Origin: a virus
DNA: 43,001 bases
Reading direction: 5' to 3' (one strand)
IMG/VR virus record: IMGVR_UViG_3300021957_000087
Span: 1 to 43,001 of that record
Shown: in pieces, positions 11,010 to 25,417 of the stretch
Position numbering within the stretch: the first letter of the stretch is position 1
Layout of the letters: the number at the start of each line of letters is the position of its first letter
Notes under the pieces: model-generated
The model's database searches: none
What the model saw: only the letters and a program-made list of their open reading frames with translations
What the model was told of the DNA's origin: nothing
Translations under genes and position numbers: made by a program

Positions 11010-14000
11010 ATGAGCGAAAAAGAATATATTGTAAGTTTAAACAAGGGCGTAGACTACGCAGGCTTCAATCAAGAAATGATTGCTAAAACTGGTGGCGGAG
11101 ATATTCCAGGACGCTCTGTTGTTGTTGCAAATGCAAGACCAGCTTCGCAACGTAATACACACTATAGTTTAACAGATGTAGAAGCTGATACATTAAAAAA
11201 CGATAACAGAGTGTATGCAGTTACATTACTGCCAGAACTAGATCCAGATCTTAGTATTGGATTTGATACAACTCAGACAGGTAACTTTACAAAAACTACA
11301 TTAGACCGCGGTGATTTCCTAAACTGGGGTATGCGTAGAATGAATGAAATCGTTAATCCTTATACAGGAGTTAATGCAGCGGCCGGCGGATATAATTACA
11401 CACTAGACGGATCAGGCGTTGATGTTGTTATTATGGATAGTGGACTACAAATAGATCATCCTGAATTTCAAGATGCAAACGGTGTAAGTAGAGTTGTAGA
11501 ACTTGACTGGACAACAGCTAGTGGTATTGCTGGTATGCCTGCTCAAAATGCAAATTACTATAGAGATTATGATGGACATGGTACACACGTTGCAGGTACA
11601 GCCGTAGGTAAAACATACGGTTGGGCTAAGGGATCTAAAATTTATAGTTTAAAACTTGCAGGACTAGAAGGTTCAGGGGACAGCGGAACTGGTACAAGCA
11701 CAACATATGCGTTTGATTGCATTAAAGAATGGCACAACGCTAAGCCAATTGATCCTGCGACTGGAGCAAAACGACCAACAGTTGTAAACATGAGTTGGGG
11801 ATATCTACGTTACTACGACACAGTTACTAGTATGACATATCGTGGCGTTTCAAAAACTGGAACAGATATTGATAGTAGTGCAAAGCGTTGGGCATTTGGT
11901 CTTCCACCAAATTGGAACGGTGCTAGATATAGAACAAACGTAAGAGTTGATTCAGTTGATGTTGATATGGAAGAACTAATTGATGCAGGCGTACACGTTA
12001 TGGTAGCAGCTGGCAACAGAAGTCATAAAATTGACGTACTAGGTGGTGACGATTATGATAACGTACTTGTTGCTAATACCGGATCAGTGAATTATCAACG
12101 TGGTTCATCTCCTTACAGTACAAGAGCGCATATAGTTGGTAATATAGATAGTTCAATAAATGCAAACGGATTAGAGCAAAAGGCATCGAGCTCAGAAGCA
12201 GGACCCGGTGTTAGTGTTTATGCGCCTGGTACTGATATTATGAGTGCAATGAGTACTACTAATGCTTTCAGTGCTACTACTCTTAATAATCCTTATCCAG
12301 CAAATTCAAGTTTCTTAATTAATAATATAAGCGGCACCAGTATGGCATCGCCACAAGTGGCTGGAATGACAGCATTATGGTTACAAATAAATCTTAATGC
12401 AACACCTGCACAAGGATTAGCGTTTGTTAATTCCACTGCAAAAACTGCAAAAATTTATGATACCGCTTCGCCTGCTACTGACTATACCGATACACGTAGT
12501 TTATTAGGAGCAACAAATAGATTTGCATTTAATAAATTTAACAGTGCAACTCAGCTAACCATGGGCACAGTAGCAGATGCAGTTGCTCCTGGTGCAGTAG
12601 CAACGTATTCATTGTCGTCAAATGCAGCAAGTGTTAATGAAGGCGGCAGCGTAACAGTTACTCTTACTACTACTAATGTTACTAATGGCACGTCAGTTGG
12701 TTATGCCATATCTGGCATCGAAGCAGGTGATATTAGTGAATCACTTACAGGTAACTTTATTGTAACTGGAAATACTGCAACAGCTACATTTAATATAATA
12801 GCAGATGCGACTACAGAAGGCGCACAAACTATGTTATTATCTCTAATTGGAGTTAGTGAAACAGTTAGTATTACTATTAATGATACAAGTGTAGCATCAG
12901 GCTATAACTTAGTTCCAGCAGCCGGTAACGTTGATGAAGGTGGTAATTTAATATTCAATGTTACTACAACAAATGTAGCAGATGCAACTACACTATATTG
13001 GACTGTTACTAATGACAGTGACTTTGCTACTTCAAATGGTAGTTTTGTAATTAACAGCAATGCTGGGTCGTTTACAGTAACACCAACTGCTGATGAAACT
13101 ACTGAAGGCGCGGAAACATTCACTGCTAGTATTAGAACAGGAAGTGTATCAGGAACAATTGTAGCAACATCAAGTACAGTTACTATTAATGATACAAGTA
13201 CAACTCCAGGTGGCGGCGCAGCTTCTTACTCACTCGCTGTAAGTTCATCGTCTCTACAGGAAGGCGAGAAAACAACAGTTACACTTACTACAGCAAACGT
13301 AGACGATGCAACTAACGTACCATACACAATCTCAGGTGTTAATTCAAGTGATTTAGATACTGGTCCGAGAGCAAGTACAGCACTTGCAAATACAACAGGA
13401 TATGGTAGTAACTTCTTCACTAGAGAAGTTAGAACAGCAGGTGTTAGATTAGTTAGTGCAGGCACAGTCGGCGGACAAACAGCGGTACCGGATGCATTTA
13501 TTCAAAAAGTAGCACGTATGTTCCAGTTGTTTACTGATAGCACAGGTGCAGGTATTAACGCAAACAAACAGAATCAACTAATAGAAACATTACTTGGTAA
13601 TACAACATCGTATCACTCACCAAAGCCGACTATACAAAGAATAGCAAGAGGTGCAGGCGGCGACTATACACCAAACTTCTTAGACGATGCAGGCATTCGC
13701 TCTTGGGGATTAGAACCATTGTTTGATGAAACAGTGCAAAACGATATGGTATGGTACTTAAACAGTAGTGGTACTCCTGGAACAGGTGACGAAGATGCAC
13801 AAGAAGTGATTGAACACGTCTTCCATACATTACACATGCATGGTTTGGATGCAGCAACATTAAAAATGTATCCAGATATAAGTGCAGACTGGGCAACTAG
13901 TGACTTACACGCTGCAATGAAAGAAGCAGCAGATGCAAGCAAATGGGATCCAAGTGGATATGCGCCTAATTGGGAAACTGATGCAGGAGAGTTTGAAGTA

Positions 14001-15086
14001 GGCGTTAAAGAATATTTGTACTTGCTTAACTTCTGTATGTTTGAGTACAGCGACTTGTGGGACGGTGGGAGTCTTGCTCCAGAATGGACAGATGACATGC
14101 GTACACAAGCAGGTATACAATCAAACAACCCACTAGGCTATGCATTATTTAATACACATATTGGGGATGTAATTAGTAAGCCGGCCATTGCAACTATTAG
14201 AACAATATTCCAAGATGGTGACGTAGGTGATCCAACAGTAGCAGGCGCTTCAGGCTATGTTGCAGACGCAGCAATTTCACTAACTGGTAACTTTACAGTT
14301 AATTCAAACACTGCTACACTTGAAATTAACACAGCAAAAGATGGAACTACTGATGGTGATAAAACACTAGCATTTGCACTAGACAATGGTGAATCATCAA
14401 CAAACGTTAGTATTACTGATTCAAGCCAAGCTGTTGGCCCAACTTATTATGTTTATCCAGCAGCACAAACAATTGACGAAGGTAGTGCTTTAACAATCAA
14501 TGTTGTTACAACAGATGTAGCAGATGCAACTACACTTTATTGGACTGCAACTAACTCAAGTGATTTTGCTACTTCAAGTGGTAGCTTTGCAATCACAAGC
14601 GACAATGGATCATTTACAGTAACTCCGACAGCAGATGCTACAACAGAAGGTACAGAAAACTTCCAAGTACAGATTAGAACTGGAAGTATTAGCGGAACTG
14701 TTGTAGACACAACAGATGCAATAGCCATTGGTGATACAAGTACTACACCTGCATTTGCCCCGGACTATACAATTACAGTAACAAATAGTGGCAATAGTTA
14801 TACACTAAGCGGAACTGATAGAAATGGTGCAGTAAGTGGATCAAACCCAGCACTAGCATTTAACAGTGGTGATAATGTAAGATTTAATGTAAATGCAAGC
14901 ACATCAAGTGCGCATCCGTTCTACATTAAAACTACACAAAGCACAGGCACTGGTAATCAAGTGACAGGTGCTACAGGACAAGGCACTACACAAGTAGATT
15001 GGACAACAGCTACTGACGGTGCAGGATCATATGGATACCAGTGTTCGATACACCTTGGTATGTGGAATACTATAACAATATCATAA
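11010..15086 (+). CDS. Virion subtilisin-like protease with Calx-beta-like and cupredoxin-like domains
   Basis: A 1,358-residue protein. Residues 1-80 resemble an I9-type propeptide (YIVSL, then LTDVEADTL and DNRVYAVT). A subtilase (S8) domain follows with the full catalytic set: Asp143 in IMDSG, His190 in DGHGTHVAGT, Asn336 in AAGN and Ser444 in GTSMASPQVAG. Residues about 525-1248 carry Calx-beta-like repeats (VNEGG/VDEGG/IDEGS ending INDTS/GDTS). One repeat is split by a domain of about 300 residues (784-1086) containing EVIEHVFHTLHMHG. The last 110 residues resemble a cupredoxin with His1302, Cys1345, His1348 and Met1351. Inference: a self-processing or surface-degrading fibre component in the structural operon. 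Confidence 0.85.
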   Translation: MSEKEYIVSLNKGVDYAGFNQEMIAKTGGGDIPGRSVVVANARPASQRNTHYSLTDVEADTLKNDNRVYAVTLLPELDPDLSIGFDTTQTGNFTKTTLDRGDFLNWGMRRMNEIVNPYTGVNAAAGGYNYTLDGSGVDVVIMDSGLQIDHPEFQDANGVSRVVELDWTTASGIAGMPAQNANYYRDYDGHGTHVAGTAVGKTYGWAKGSKIYSLKLAGLEGSGDSGTGTSTTYAFDCIKEWHNAKPIDPATGAKRPTVVNMSWGYLRYYDTVTSMTYRGVSKTGTDIDSSAKRWAFGLPPNWNGARYRTNVRVDSVDVDMEELIDAGVHVMVAAGNRSHKIDVLGGDDYDNVLVANTGSVNYQRGSSPYSTRAHIVGNIDSSINANGLEQKASSSEAGPGVSVYAPGTDIMSAMSTTNAFSATTLNNPYPANSSFLINNISGTSMASPQVAGMTALWLQINLNATPAQGLAFVNSTAKTAKIYDTASPATDYTDTRSLLGATNRFAFNKFNSATQLTMGTVADAVAPGAVATYSLSSNAASVNEGGSVTVTLTTTNVTNGTSVGYAISGIEAGDISESLTGNFIVTGNTATATFNIIADATTEGAQTMLLSLIGVSETVSITINDTSVASGYNLVPAAGNVDEGGNLIFNVTTTNVADATTLYWTVTNDSDFATSNGSFVINSNAGSFTVTPTADETTEGAETFTASIRTGSVSGTIVATSSTVTINDTSTTPGGGAASYSLAVSSSSLQEGEKTTVTLTTANVDDATNVPYTISGVNSSDLDTGPRASTALANTTGYGSNFFTREVRTAGVRLVSAGTVGGQTAVPDAFIQKVARMFQLFTDSTGAGINANKQNQLIETLLGNTTSYHSPKPTIQRIARGAGGDYTPNFLDDAGIRSWGLEPLFDETVQNDMVWYLNSSGTPGTGDEDAQEVIEHVFHTLHMHGLDAATLKMYPDISADWATSDLHAAMKEAADASKWDPSGYAPNWETDAGEFEVGVKEYLYLLNFCMFEYSDLWDGGSLAPEWTDDMRTQAGIQSNNPLGYALFNTHIGDVISKPAIATIRTIFQDGDVGDPTVAGASGYVADAAISLTGNFTVNSNTATLEINTAKDGTTDGDKTLAFALDNGESSTNVSITDSSQAVGPTYYVYPAAQTIDEGSALTINVVTTDVADATTLYWTATNSSDFATSSGSFAITSDNGSFTVTPTADATTEGTENFQVQIRTGSISGTVVDTTDAIAIGDTSTTPAFAPDYTITVTNSGNSYTLSGTDRNGAVSGSNPALAFNSGDNVRFNVNASTSSAHPFYIKTTQSTGTGNQVTGATGQGTTQVDWTTATDGAGSYGYQCSIHLGMWNTITIS
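12900..13204 (+). repeat. Calx-beta-like repeat, duplicate unit A
   Basis: Encodes about 100 residues (VDEGGNL, NVADATTLYWTVTN, DFATSNGSF, TPTADETTEG, INDTSTT). It is very similar to the unit at 14440-14748, with the interrupted repeat between them, which indicates an internal duplication. Confidence 0.8.
13360..14266 (+). other. Domain of about 300 residues inserted inside a repeat
   Basis: The upstream half of a Calx-beta-like unit (YTISGVNSSDL) stops here, and the downstream half (ISLTGNFTVNSNTATLEI) resumes after it. The insert is helical in character and not repeat-like. It contains a His-rich motif EHVFHTLHMHG at about residues 935-945 and a later EYLYLLNFCMFEYSDLW segment. No family assigned; a metal site is possible. 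Confidence 0.7.
14440..14748 (+). repeat. Calx-beta-like repeat, duplicate unit B
   Basis: This is the second copy of the unit at 12900-13204 (IDEGSAL, DVADATTLYWTATN, DFATSSGSF, TPTADATTEG, GDTSTT). It lies directly before the cupredoxin-like end domain. Confidence 0.8.
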
Positions 15087-15096
15087 GGAACCAACA

Positions 15097-15951
15097 ATGG
15101 CAGTACAATTAATTAACATAGGCAATATTGCTAACGACGGCACTGGTGACGATTTAAGAGAAGCGTTTATCAAAACTAACGCTAACTTTGAAGAATTAGA
15201 TCTACGCGATGATGAGAAAACAACTGCTACTAATTTAGGCGATAGCGGTCAAGGATTATTTGTACAACGTCTAAATTATGATCTACAGTTCAAAAAAATA
15301 GTAGGTGGTGCTGGATTAACGTTAAGTGTCACTGATAACAATATTACTATTAACAATGATAAAGTGTACGATCTTACCCAAACCGCTGTATCGGGCGATG
15401 ATTATGTTACAAAGCAATACGACTTTGAAGATGCTAGAATACTTTATAATAATGTTTATGATACATTAGCAGACTTACCAAATGCAAGTACATATCACGG
15501 ATTATTTGCACACGTACACAGTACCGGCGGTGCATATTATAGTCATGGAGGTGCTTGGATAGAGCTTGCACTTAAATCAGATATCCCAGAAATATCAGAC
15601 GATACAACTCCACAACTTGGCGGCGATTTAGACGGCGCTGGATACGACATAGCAAATGTTAATGAAATTACTACCACCGGAGATATTAAAGCAAACCAAT
15701 TTAAAGGACCGCTCATAGGTTCTACTATAGGATTTCATGAAGGTGATGTCAGAGGAAATTTGTATGGTACTGTTAGAGGTGTAGACGTAGAAGCATTATA
15801 TAACCAATACTTTGCACCCGGTACTGGAGACTTTGGTGGCCTTGACTCTGTAGCAAATAATGCACTTGAATTTATAATCTTCAACAGCCAAGTCGATTTC
15901 GGTACAATAACAGCGCCAGCAGCTACAAGTCTAGACGGTGGCGCTTTATAA
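15097..15951 (+). CDS. Short fibre-type virion protein
   Basis: 284 residues, starting at ATG 15097 behind AAGGAA, 10 bp after the protease gene. The N-terminus (INIGNIANDGTGDDLREAF, then NANFEELD) is the same docking-like motif as in the 6224-7783 protein. The middle region (VSDDTTPQLGGDLDGAG type) is common in phage fibre proteins. The C-terminus has GDVRGNLYGTVRGVDVEALY. It is much shorter than its neighbours and has no repeats. Role inferred: a virion accessory or fibre-connecting protein sharing an attachment site with the larger fibres. Confidence 0.7.
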   Translation: MAVQLINIGNIANDGTGDDLREAFIKTNANFEELDLRDDEKTTATNLGDSGQGLFVQRLNYDLQFKKIVGGAGLTLSVTDNNITINNDKVYDLTQTAVSGDDYVTKQYDFEDARILYNNVYDTLADLPNASTYHGLFAHVHSTGGAYYSHGGAWIELALKSDIPEISDDTTPQLGGDLDGAGYDIANVNEITTTGDIKANQFKGPLIGSTIGFHEGDVRGNLYGTVRGVDVEALYNQYFAPGTGDFGGLDSVANNALEFIIFNSQVDFGTITAPAATSLDGGAL

Positions 15952-15989: not shown

Positions 15990-18900
15990 ATGTCTAAATT
16001 ATGGAATATACCAACAGGTACTAGATACCGTGTATTAGTTGAACGTAGTGCAGTAAATATACTACTTCCACTTTCAGCTATTGCTAACATAGAAGTCGAA
16101 CAAATAGGCGGTGACTTACCTGCCGGTACTCGGTTAGAAGGCAATTACTTAACAGGAACTGTTTACGAGGTTGCATACGACACTACGTTTACGTCAGTAT
16201 TTAGAGCGTCAACAGACGATGAATGGCAAGACTGTACAATAGAATTTGTTGTTACTGGTCCTGACGATCCGCAATGGGCAACCGTACCAGGACTATTAAA
16301 TGTAGGATCAAATAATGCACTTTTTATCTTAGACAGCGAAATAATAGATTATCAATTAACAGCGACAGATACTGATTTAAGCGCAGGCGACGAATTAACA
16401 TATTTCATTGCTGATGGCGATGGTGTACTTCCTCCAGGAATCATATTATCCGAAAGCGGCAAACTTACAGGTACTACAGAACCTCTACTAAGTTTAGATA
16501 AACGATACGTAGGTGGCGGATATGACACTTCACCGTTTGCTGGGCTACCAATGGATTATGCTGCATTAAGCTCAAATGGTTATGCTAGTTTTTATTATGA
16601 TACTGTTGAGTACGGATACAATGAACCAACTTCTAATCCACGTAAACTAAATCGTTATTATCCATTTGCTGTTACAGTGACAGACGGAGAAAATTTTGTA
16701 AGGCGTGAGTTCAAAATATACCTGGTAGGTGATGATTACTTAAAAGCAGACAACACGTTAATGCAGTCTGCTACAGGTGTATTTACTGCTGACGTAACAA
16801 ATGTAAGAACACCAACTTGGATTACTCCAAGAGATTTAGGTTTTAAACGTGCAGCTAATTATACTACAGTATTTTTAGACATTATAGATAACTGGACACT
16901 AGAGGGTGTTGTAGTTTATACTCTTGAAGATGTTAACGATGACGGAACTCCAAGTGAACTTCCGCCGGGCATGGTTCTTGATAGTCGAAATGGAGAAATT
17001 GCTGGGCGTATACCATATCAGCCGGCCATTACACAAAATTATAAATTCTCAGTAAACGCAACACGTTTAACTACAGATTTAGAAACTGTATCAATTTTTG
17101 GTAATTATTACGAAGATGTATTATTAGGAAATAATAATATAAAAATCTATAAAATAGACCTAACAGGTGACTTAGATGGCGTAAACGATTTATTTGAATT
17201 AGTTAATAGAAACATACTGTTAGGTAATAGGCAATACAAAGTTACAAACGTAGATGATCGAAATCGAGATTATGATGTAATTTACTTCGATGACACCCTT
17301 GCACCTAGTATTAATTTAATATTAAGTAGAACTGCAACAACAGGCACTGACTATATGTTTGTAAGCAGATTAAATGAAACAGAAAAACAAAAGTATGCTG
17401 GTAGAACCCTTAAATTTAGCGAAACTGAAAAATATAAGATAAGCACAATTACTCCGTATATTGAATGGGAGATATCTCAAACAAATCCAAATACTGATCC
17501 AATACTTCCTGCGGCAGCTCCGCGTTTGATTGAATTAAGTACAAATTACTTTATAGGTGATTATGTAATCAACGGCGTGACAACCGGCGGCGATGGAAAA
17601 ATATATAGGTGCGTGGATACTCACGTTACTATTCCTCAAACAGATATCGACGGTATTTCAATCGAAGTAAACGGTGTTATACAAATTGATTTCGAAAACA
17701 ACAATTGGGTAGAAGTAGCTGAAACAATAGAAGGCCTAAGTTTAGCAGATAGACTAACTGCTACATCACAAGCATTAACAGCAGAATACGGTGATGATGC
17801 ACACATAACTGTAGTTAATGACACAACTTGGAAAATATTAATTCCAAGTACTGCTATGTCAAGAATAAAATCAAATATACAAAACTTTTTTGTAGGTTCA
17901 GATAGTACAATAATAACTGCTAAACTTATTAGAGATAACGAAGATAAAATTAAATTTGATGTAAATTTAACATCACAATTAAATCAAGGACGTAACATAG
18001 GTATTGCTGTATTTAGAAATGATACATTTTTTAAGAATATAATTGTTGCATCAAATGACATACAAGATATTCCTAGTACTGCGAAAACATTTGAACTAAA
18101 AATTATAGGTGAAATTGATAGTAACATTAAATGGCTTACGCCCGCAAATTTAGGATCTATTAACGCTAACTTTACTAGCACATTAAGGTTACAAGCACAG
18201 ACAACAGTACCTGACACTAGAATGATTTATTCATTAACATCAGGCAAGTTACCATTTGGATTGACACTAACTTATGATGGTGAAATTATTGGTCAAGCTA
18301 GACAATTTGGCACTGTTGATAACCCTGGATTGACTAAATTTGAAAATTTAGCTGTAACATGGGACGGTTTCTTACCAGGCGATACTACTTTTGACCGAAG
18401 TTACAAATTTACTGTGCAAGCAAGAGATAGATTTAATTACACAGCAATTGAACGTGAGTTTACATTAAAGGTTGAAGATTTAGATAATACACAATATACT
18501 GACATATATATGCGTCCGATGCTGCCTCCTACACAAAGAAAATATTTTCAAAATTTTATAAGTAATCCTGATATATTTACACCAAATAAAATTTATCGTC
18601 CAGGTGACCCAGTATTTGGGCTACAAAATAACTTAGATATGCTTGTATTTGCAGGAGCAGAGTCTAAAGACTTAGAGAATTTTGTTGCAGCAGCATCAAA
18701 GAATCATAAAAGAAAAACTTATATTTTAGGTGAAATAAAATCTGCTGTGGCTAAAAATAATCCACTAAGTGACACAATATACGAAGTTGTATATATTGAT
18801 GTTATTGACCCTGCTAATGCAAAAGAAAGAAAAGTTACGGCAGCAAGTATTAATATCAAAAATCCAAACAAGCTAAGTGTTGATCAACTACAGTATTCAA

Positions 18901-19502
18901 TAATAGATGACGCTACACGCTACGGCGGCGGATATACAGAATTGCCTGTTTATACTAGATCACTTGTTAGATTTGTATTCAGTGAAACAGACGAAATAAC
19001 AGTTATAACTAGAGGATCAGGCGACCAAGAAGTTAATGTCGATAATGCAGATTTTGAAGTTACTATTAGAGACAACGGAGATGTTGATGTTGTATTACAG
19101 AAAGGTGATAGTGAACCGTTTAGATTTAGACCAGACACTAATACAATTAAAACAGACACTACTGCAATTAATGTAAGTCAAAGTACTGATTCAATAAAAT
19201 ATATCTCTAGTATAGATCATATGAGATTGAATATTAAGAATATAGGCGACGAAGAAAGACAATATTTGCCTTTGTGGATGCGTACAGCACAAGACGGTTT
19301 TCAAGAATTAGATTTTGTTACAGCAATTCCAATTGCTTACTGCAAGGCAGGTCAAAGTGCAGACATTATTAACAATATTAAAAACTCAGGATTTGACCCA
19401 AAACTAATAACATACGATATTGACAGATATATTGTAAAAAGTGCAAAAGATAGTGCAGATGAAAAATATATACTATTCGCAAATTACCAATTCAATGTTT
19501 AA
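15990..19502 (+). CDS. Large virion protein with putative Ig (He-PIG) motifs
   Basis: 1,170 residues, starting at ATG 15990 with AAGGAA upstream. Three LPxGxxL..GxxxG elements typical of putative Ig (He-PIG) domains appear: LPPGIILSESGKLTG (about residue 147), LPPGMVLDSRNGEIAG (about 324) and LPFGLTLTYDGEIIG (about 755). The last is followed by YKFTVQARDRFNYTA, a cadherin-like strand. No signal peptide, membrane segment or enzyme motif is visible. Its place in the late structural run, with its own late promoter, points to a tail or fibre component. The exact position in the virion is unknown. Confidence 0.75.
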   Translation: MSKLWNIPTGTRYRVLVERSAVNILLPLSAIANIEVEQIGGDLPAGTRLEGNYLTGTVYEVAYDTTFTSVFRASTDDEWQDCTIEFVVTGPDDPQWATVPGLLNVGSNNALFILDSEIIDYQLTATDTDLSAGDELTYFIADGDGVLPPGIILSESGKLTGTTEPLLSLDKRYVGGGYDTSPFAGLPMDYAALSSNGYASFYYDTVEYGYNEPTSNPRKLNRYYPFAVTVTDGENFVRREFKIYLVGDDYLKADNTLMQSATGVFTADVTNVRTPTWITPRDLGFKRAANYTTVFLDIIDNWTLEGVVVYTLEDVNDDGTPSELPPGMVLDSRNGEIAGRIPYQPAITQNYKFSVNATRLTTDLETVSIFGNYYEDVLLGNNNIKIYKIDLTGDLDGVNDLFELVNRNILLGNRQYKVTNVDDRNRDYDVIYFDDTLAPSINLILSRTATTGTDYMFVSRLNETEKQKYAGRTLKFSETEKYKISTITPYIEWEISQTNPNTDPILPAAAPRLIELSTNYFIGDYVINGVTTGGDGKIYRCVDTHVTIPQTDIDGISIEVNGVIQIDFENNNWVEVAETIEGLSLADRLTATSQALTAEYGDDAHITVVNDTTWKILIPSTAMSRIKSNIQNFFVGSDSTIITAKLIRDNEDKIKFDVNLTSQLNQGRNIGIAVFRNDTFFKNIIVASNDIQDIPSTAKTFELKIIGEIDSNIKWLTPANLGSINANFTSTLRLQAQTTVPDTRMIYSLTSGKLPFGLTLTYDGEIIGQARQFGTVDNPGLTKFENLAVTWDGFLPGDTTFDRSYKFTVQARDRFNYTAIEREFTLKVEDLDNTQYTDIYMRPMLPPTQRKYFQNFISNPDIFTPNKIYRPGDPVFGLQNNLDMLVFAGAESKDLENFVAAASKNHKRKTYILGEIKSAVAKNNPLSDTIYEVVYIDVIDPANAKERKVTAASINIKNPNKLSVDQLQYSIIDDATRYGGGYTELPVYTRSLVRFVFSETDEITVITRGSGDQEVNVDNADFEVTIRDNGDVDVVLQKGDSEPFRFRPDTNTIKTDTTAINVSQSTDSIKYISSIDHMRLNIKNIGDEERQYLPLWMRTAQDGFQELDFVTAIPIAYCKAGQSADIINNIKNSGFDPKLITYDIDRYIVKSAKDSADEKYILFANYQFNV

Positions 19503-23719: not shown

Positions 23720-24506
23720 ATTTATTGCAGCAATGGACCACAGTGGCGGTTCAACAGGAGGCGTACTAGAACGCTACGGACAAGAATACACAGAAGCAGA
23801 CAAGATGGAGAAAGTTCATGCTATGCGTCTTAGAATGATTAACAGTCCTGAATTTAACGATGAAAATATTTGGGCCGCAATACTATACAAAGACACAATA
23901 GAACGCGGAATGGTTCCGTTACTACACGGCAAAAATATTCATGCTATTTTAAAAGTTGACAGTGGCTGTACTGAAGCAGGAACACTTAAAAAGTTTGATT
24001 TAAATTATATGCTAAATTTTGCTGTGAAGCACAAGTGCTTTGGAACTAAAATGAGAAGTATTGTAAAGTCCCAAGATATATTAGATGAGGTCCTTGATCA
24101 GCAGATGGAACTAGCTGGTCAAATTTATGCTTGGGAATTAATGCCAATTGTGGAGCCAGAGATTCCAATTGAACATGAACACAAGCAAGGCTTAGAAATT
24201 GCATTACTAAACGGACTTAAGAAAAGATTAGATCTGTATGAAGGGCAATGTATACTAAAATTAACACTTCCTGAACAACAAAACATGTATCAAGATCTTG
24301 TAAATCATCCTAAAGTCCACAAAGTTGTAGGACTTAGCGGTGGATACTCTACAGATGAAGCGTGTAAAAGACTTTCAAAGAACAAACAAATGACAGCTAG
24401 TTTTAGTAGAGCATTAAGTGAAGGACTAAAATTTGGCTTGACAAACGAAGCATTTGATGCTACAATAAACAATAATATAAAAATGATCACAGAGGCTAGT
24501 ACATGA
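23709..24506 (+). CDS. fba: Class I fructose-bisphosphate aldolase
   Basis: 265 residues from ATG 23709, which has AGGA 9 bases upstream; ATG 23700 abuts that site and is less likely. Bacterial class I aldolase signatures appear in order: AAMDHSGGSTGG, FGTKMRS, ELMPIVEPEIPIE, CILKLTLPE with the Schiff-base lysine, VVGLSGGYS and SFSRALSEGL. It cleaves fructose-1,6-bisphosphate to DHAP and glyceraldehyde-3-phosphate, or runs in reverse. It is about 30 residues shorter than typical cellular forms. This is a host-derived metabolic gene inside a replication operon and may redirect carbon during infection. TGA overlaps the next ATG (ATGA). Confidence 0.85.
   Translation: MNRRFIAAMDHSGGSTGGVLERYGQEYTEADKMEKVHAMRLRMINSPEFNDENIWAAILYKDTIERGMVPLLHGKNIHAILKVDSGCTEAGTLKKFDLNYMLNFAVKHKCFGTKMRSIVKSQDILDEVLDQQMELAGQIYAWELMPIVEPEIPIEHEHKQGLEIALLNGLKKRLDLYEGQCILKLTLPEQQNMYQDLVNHPKVHKVVGLSGGYSTDEACKRLSKNKQMTASFSRALSEGLKFGLTNEAFDATINNNIKMITEAST
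24438..24466 (+). promoter_or_regulatory. Sigma70-type promoter TTGACA-N17-TACAAT inside aldolase gene
   Basis: A consensus -35 at 24438-24443, a 17-bp spacer and TACAAT at 24461-24466. The expected start near 24473 lies 30 bases before the clamp-loader ATG. It is inside coding sequence, so coincidence is possible. Confidence 0.5.
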
Positions 24507-25417
24507 AAGACTTATGGGTAGAAAAGTATCGTCCTAAAACAGTAAACGGATATGTGTTTAGAGATGACTCTCAGCGCAATCAAGTAAATACTTGGATAAA
24601 GGACAAAACTATCCCGCATTTATTGTTTAGCGGAAACGCAGGCATTGGTAAAACAACACTTGCTAAACTTTTGTTTAATGAACTTGAGGTTAATGATCTA
24701 GACATACTAGAAATTAACGCAAGTCGCACAAACTCAGTTGATGATGTAAGAGATAAAATTGTTAACTTTGTACAGATGATCCCATTTGGGGACTTTAAGG
24801 TTGTATTATTAGATGAAGCAGATTACTTATCGCCAAACGCTCAAGCAGCTCTTCGTGGGGTTATGGAGGAGTATCATACTACTGCTCGTTTCATTCTCAC
24901 TTGTAACTATCCAAATCGTATTATACCCGCTTTGCACAGTAGGTGTCAAGGTTTCCACATTGCTAAAATTGACCAAACTGAGTTTACAGCTAGAGTTGCT
25001 GAAATCCTTATCACTGAAGGTATTACTCCTGATTTGGATACGTTGGATACCTACGTAAAAGCAACATATCCAGACTTGCGTAAGTGTATCAACACAGTAC
25101 AAATGAATTCAACAGATGGGGTACTAGTAAAACCTAACGAAGGCGATAGTGGTGCCGCTGATTGGAAACTAGAAATGGTTGAACTGTTTAAGGCAGGTAA
25201 AATACAAGAAGCACGTAAATTATTATGTGGCGCAGTACGCCCAGAAGAGATGGAAGAGGTGTATCGTTGGCTTTATGACAACATAGAACTATTTGGTGAT
25301 GACGAAACACAAGACAGTGCTGTGATTATAATTAAACAAGGCATGGTTGATCATACACTTGTTGTTGATCCGGAGATTAATTTGGCAGCAACGCTTATTA
25401 AACTTGCAAGGTTATAA
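24503..25417 (+). CDS. 44: Sliding-clamp loader subunit (T4 gp44 type)
   Basis: 304 residues, an AAA+ ATPase of the RFC-small/gp44 family. Start MKDLWVEKYRP, Walker A GNAGIGKT (44-51), Walker B VVLLDEAD (100-107), sensor 1 TCNYP (133-137) and the arginine-finger SRC motif (146-148). It loads the gp45 clamp onto primer junctions. In T4 it works with gp62, which I do not find in this window; the next gene is an oxygenase. The start overlaps the aldolase stop (ATGA), and an internal promoter may boost it. Confidence 0.9.
   Translation: MKDLWVEKYRPKTVNGYVFRDDSQRNQVNTWIKDKTIPHLLFSGNAGIGKTTLAKLLFNELEVNDLDILEINASRTNSVDDVRDKIVNFVQMIPFGDFKVVLLDEADYLSPNAQAALRGVMEEYHTTARFILTCNYPNRIIPALHSRCQGFHIAKIDQTEFTARVAEILITEGITPDLDTLDTYVKATYPDLRKCINTVQMNSTDGVLVKPNEGDSGAADWKLEMVELFKAGKIQEARKLLCGAVRPEEMEEVYRWLYDNIELFGDDETQDSAVIIIKQGMVDHTLVVDPEINLAATLIKLARL

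Follow-up and report, generated by a model that had tools for sequence, protein, structure and literature searches.

The C-terminal domain of a 1358-residue phage protein (ORF 11010..15086, + strand) has the predicted fold of a cupredoxin and carries the complete set of type 1 copper ligands. This ORF is located in a tail-fibre/baseplate gene cluster of the window, i.e. the whole stretch of 43,001 nucleotides that was analysed, which stems from an IMG/VR virus record. Since it occupies varied positions in varied proteins, the cupredoxin domain is a general module, widespread and mobile, on phage tail and baseplate proteins that are mostly of marine origin. With a probability that we put at roughly 55%, it is a true cupredoxin with a complete type 1 copper site, distributed as a mobile module on marine phage tails, where it would act as a copper-locked docking or attachment domain.

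Domain organization and genomic context

The 1358-residue protein combines a protease with several appended domains. Indeed, (i) a peptidase S8 (subtilase) domain is encoded at 11409..12452 (+ strand; residues 134-481; Pfam PF00082, E 3.9e-24), in which D143, H190 and S444 occupy the motif positions of the Asp-His-Ser triad required of Peptidase S8 and N336 that of the oxyanion residue, (ii) Calx-beta-like repeats follow, with approximate limits 12600..13320 (+ strand), recognised from a sub-threshold Pfam Calx-beta match and from repeated xxEG motifs, (iii) a domain of about 275 residues is inserted thereafter (13473..14300, + strand) and (iv) another repeat precedes the cupredoxin domain, which comes last (14754..15083, + strand; residues 1249-1358; AlphaFold2, Foldseek and profile search of the PDB). 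The initial annotation set the start of this domain at 14755, one base after the first base (14754) of the codon for residue 1249; this offset is immaterial. It also described the whole protein as a phage adhesin. This name is not supported as such, because an S8 subtilase with a complete triad makes up the N-terminal half, and it was dropped, given the PF00082 match, in favour of a tail-cluster protease (subtilase) with appended domains. As for the location of the domain at the tip of the protein, it is correct for the 1358-residue protein, where the domain is C-terminal, but it is not a property of the whole cupredoxin-domain family because the domain is internal or N-terminal elsewhere.

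In the first 20 kb of the window, three ORFs match tail-fibre or baseplate PHROGs or bear a gp9/gp10-like start. The next gene (15097..15951, + strand) encodes a baseplate/tail-fibre connector of 284 residues that is similar to the N-terminal part of T4 gp9/gp10 (phrog_677, E 3.2e-15; PF07880 below the cut-off) and is devoid of a cupredoxin domain. The 1170-residue protein encoded at 15990-19502 has no relative among reference phages, and therefore no synteny information is provided by this region. The annotations of reference relatives read subtilisin-like protease, baseplate subunit or virion structural protein; from these annotations and from the gene neighbourhood, we infer that the protein is located in the virion. 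A clamp-loader protein (window 24503-25417) shares 56% identity with its closest reference relatives, those of PA5oct-like Pseudomonas jumbo phages, whereas the resemblance of the tail genes is to marine cyanophages.

Predicted fold of the C-terminal domain

Residues 1249-1358 were modelled with AlphaFold2 from an alignment of 65 diverse copies, resulting in an all-beta model with a mean pLDDT of 97.2 and a pTM of 0.90. This high confidence stems from the use of the family alignment as input; a wrong family alignment is the main computational risk, and the independent profile search agrees with the model. The model is a Greek-key beta-sandwich, as in the Cupredoxin superfamily. Its top matches among solved structures (Foldseek, PDB) are rusticyanins and copper nitrite reductases; a Nitrosopumilus purple cupredoxin and cytochrome oxidase are also among the matches, and the list is interspersed with a few hits to an aspartic peptidase of Shewanella (SO1698). 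Rusticyanin and the cupredoxin domains of copper nitrite reductases and multicopper oxidases are the best fold and profile matches, although they are distant, with TM-scores of only about 0.5 and 13-20% identity, and no type 2 or trinuclear copper ligands were noticed in the phage domain. The predicted fold class is thus clear and its similarity to solved cupredoxins is remote.

PDB sequences had to be searched with a profile, as a single query sequence gave no useful result; with the profile, almost only cupredoxins are present among the best 60 matches listed, including copper nitrite reductase (1.6e-7) and plastocyanin (1.5e-5). A search of the window record for the Copper-bind family at the default threshold gave no match, the window copy scoring 15.0 bits against PF00127, below the curated cut-off of 21.2. 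This family is matched at E<=0.1 by 48 of the 65 members of the alignment, the best at 2.6e-7. The structure prediction therefore returned the cupredoxin fold put forward in the initial annotation and not another fold, and the fold matches together with the profile matches to plastocyanin and copper nitrite reductases concur with it.

Conservation of the proposed copper ligands

Cupredoxins use His, Cys, His and Met as copper ligands. In the window copy, the N-terminal His ligand is His1302 (AHPFYIKT; 14913..14915, + strand) and the ligand loop is Cys1345-x2-His1348-x2-Met1351 (YQCSIHLGM; 15042..15062, + strand, with the Cys1345 codon at 15042-15044). The initial annotation had placed these four residues correctly, as well as the terminal strand NTITIS, and the 110-residue domain contains exactly one Cys, two His and one Met, each of them a proposed ligand. 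The profile alignment to plastocyanin 3cvb places the His of HP on a plastocyanin His and the C-x2-H...M residues on the plastocyanin Cys, His and Met; the order and place of the ligands are those of the Cupredoxin superfamily, in register with plastocyanin and with nitrite reductase.

Among 151 distinct full-length viral copies, whose median pairwise identity is 43%, 148 keep the four ligands together, always with the spacing C-x2-H-x2-M (148/148), and Met is invariant (151/151). The four ligand positions rank among the five most conserved columns, and the set is kept by 23 of the 25 cluster representatives at the 50% clustering level. Since the collection searches relied on short patterns, some of which contain ligands, the copies that match none of these patterns constitute an unbiased subset; 45 of its 48 copies keep all four ligands, which rules out a chance origin of the motif. 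In each of the three exceptions (HSDM, DSRM and H-QM), Cys and the second His are both missing, and the copy is still recognised by the domain profile. A disulfide involving Cys1345 was also considered and is ruled out, as 127 of the 151 copies have no other Cys. The full type 1 ligand set announced in the initial annotation is therefore upheld, being in register with known sites and almost absolutely conserved. At the level of sequence, this pattern supports selection for a working metal site, because the ligands are kept together and because Cys and His are lost together in the exceptions. The type of site points to copper, and copper binding is accordingly taken here as probable.

The domain shares its predicted fold and the register of its His...Cys-x2-His...Met residues with the plastocyanin/azurin family (PF00127: plastocyanin, amicyanin, pseudoazurin), and its C-x2-H-x2-M loop has the same length as in amicyanin. 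It differs from this family in that it is part of a large tail-cluster protein, whereas the family members are free electron carriers, in that it has extra N-terminal strands, and in that the window copy lies under the family cut-off. The residue following the first His differs as well: Asn is usual at this place in small cupredoxins, whereas Pro is present in the window copy and in 145 of the 151 viral copies. In multicopper oxidases, the type 1 His is likewise followed by Pro, within an HPxH motif.

Distribution in phages and cellular relatives

A tblastn search of reference phage records with the gp9-type copy of S-RIM2 as query found the domain in 336 records, mostly marine Synechococcus or Prochlorococcus phages; Pelagibacter phages and single-cell marine viruses account for a few. 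The matches listed are for the most part annotated as baseplate wedge tail fiber connector and the domain is usually at the end of gp9. Ten proteins were read, among them gp9 of S-SM1 and two proteins of cyanopodoviruses with the domain at the N-terminus, and all ten possess C-x2-H-x2-M. In marine T4-like phages, the gp9 connector between baseplate wedge and tail fibre (phrog_677) thus has the same C-terminal domain with all four ligands, but it is a different protein from that of the window and lacks the protease domain. Collections were scanned with a closer set of sequences (A2, first sequence L020), as the full alignment (A1) is too divergent, and at least 568 confirmed relatives were found in IMG/VR. 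In the viral loci, 28 complete ORFs combine subtilase motifs with a cupredoxin domain at the end, and further S8 domains were confirmed by Pfam in ORFs missed by the subtilase-motif screen.

Some long ORFs contain a second cupredoxin-like domain. In four of them (L004, L011, L044, L060), it is located upstream of the main copy and has its own H...C-x2-H-x2-M; in three others (L031, L033, L047), it is a more distant repeat with C-x2-H-x2-Q (WCHFHTGQ), in which Gln would occupy the axial position, as in stellacyanin. A YHYH domain (PF14240, 1.9e-22) is fused to the cupredoxin domain in an ORF of the lake Actinomycetia phage DSL-LC01 (L085 4128-5498), and YHYH proteins are also found among the BFVD fold matches of the window model. 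Other, weak BFVD fold matches come from marseillevirus- and pithovirus-like giant viruses; they are small "beta-sandwich proteins", and some of them may be viral cupredoxin-like proteins that stand alone.

On the cellular side, a scan recovered relatives from marine Bacteroidetes and from single-cell genomes of Prochlorococcus; its DNA pattern included the His motif, so that relatives devoid of this motif would escape it. Small secreted proteins of Prochlorococcus and of marine Bacteroidetes (e.g. L128 and L091) share 41-59% identity with the phage copy L020 and have the full ligand set, but many of them are free-standing and have a leader; most of the cellular relatives found have the same ligand residues with a longer, plastocyanin-like spacing. 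In the Prochlorococcus loci (L094-L128; L128 4890-5333), a small secreted cupredoxin of about 130 residues after a hydrophobic leader is encoded, with the longer loop C-x2-H-x4-M. This protein passes the PF00127 Copper-bind cut-off, with 31.5 bits for a Prochlorococcus relative. The phage module may derive from this secreted cellular cupredoxin, or the cellular protein from the phage module.

Putative role of the domain

The short, amicyanin-type C-x2-H-x2-M loop and the N-terminal His would most probably bind copper tightly, and the beta-sandwich, locked by the metal, would then give the tail apparatus a rigid module for docking or attachment that resists proteases. Since copper is very scarce in the cytoplasm, the place where phage proteins fold, loading of the metal would be likelier after lysis or at the host cell surface or envelope. 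A general structural or attachment role is favoured, if loosely held, over a dedicated electron-transfer pathway because the module is found in very different proteins, namely the gp9 connector, the subtilase, a tail fibre and a cyanopodovirus tail-region protein.

The initial annotation had mentioned a redox activity at the cell surface. According to such an explanation, the type 1 site would pass electrons or would oxidise or reduce a surface component (copper, thiols or reactive oxygen) during infection, which would agree with the retention of all four ligands of an electron-transfer-type site and with relatives in the PDB that are electron carriers or copper enzymes. This role is nonetheless unlikely, as neither a conserved redox partner gene nor a fused redox enzyme was seen and as the domain is present in many unrelated tail proteins. 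It is improbable that the site, while a genuine four-residue one, accommodates another metal, such as zinc, or mixed metals, and is purely fold-stabilising: the scarcity of copper where the protein folds and the ability of Cys/His sites to accept zinc as well are in line with this proposal, but zinc does not require the Met ligand that is invariant in all copies, and the relatives are copper proteins.

The presentation of copper by the tail, or its uptake by the tail at the surface, with the metal-uptake machinery of the host or a copper-bearing surface component as receptor, is quite improbable. The module is frequent in marine phages and this role would transpose the iron "Ferrojan horse" idea to copper; iron in the fibre tips of T4 (gp37) and HxH motifs in marine phage tail fibres offer a precedent (PMC11705849). 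These are likewise metal-holding phage tail proteins, but they bind octahedral iron by paired HxH histidines, a site that differs from the type 1 copper site of the cupredoxin domain. Against this role, a type 1 site is normally too tight on copper for hand-over, no receptor is known and the gp9 connector of T4 is not a receptor-binding tip. Finally, a relic in which the fold persists only as a beta-sandwich adhesion domain with a disused metal site, as the three site-less copies that still match the profile might suggest, is hardly credible, since ligand loss would then be expected to be piecemeal and frequent, whereas the four residues are kept in 148 of 151 copies at 43% median identity and Cys and His disappear jointly.

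A copper-locked docking or attachment domain is thus the preferred reading. It corresponds to a known fold and a known site in a setting, phage tail proteins, that seems unreported, as the open-access literature, searched for phage tail or virion proteins with cupredoxin, blue copper or plastocyanin-like domains, gave no relevant paper. A phage-encoded cupredoxin is well known in the form of the plastocyanin encoded by petE of cyanophages (PMC3037559), but the latter is a free photosynthetic electron carrier inside the infected cell, whereas the window domain belongs to a tail-cluster protein. The interest of the finding rests mostly on the whole set of phage copies, to which the window contributes a single one. 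A concrete and testable identity is thereby gained for the C-terminal part of the cyanophage gp9 connector and for that of many phage subtilases. More tentatively, and with somewhat less than even odds, copper-loaded cupredoxins might be standard components of the tails and baseplates of cyanomyoviruses, cyanopodoviruses and uncultured large phages, might be needed for stability or infection and might account for a measurable share of the ligand-bound copper of seawater; copper-loaded tail domains would then be a previously unrecognised class of virion metalloprotein. Copper occupancy, if confirmed, would make copper proteins of many marine phage particles, which would be relevant to how tails are kept stable once outside cells, to how hosts are recognised and to the organic ligands of dissolved copper in the sea, which are poorly identified.

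Inserted His-rich domain

The inserted domain (residues about 822-1097) has no match in Pfam, NCBIfam or PHROG. Its model is helical (pLDDT 70.6), with the His-rich motif E-H-x2-H-T-x-H on one helix, and a fold search returned no significant match, the best being the zinc protease PPEP-2 (E 0.46). Large marine phages may thus have in it a metalloprotease-like domain that has escaped recognition. It recurs at 76 related viral loci, whether or not the protein also has a subtilase domain, and E-H-x2-H-T-x-H is strongly conserved (alignment A3).
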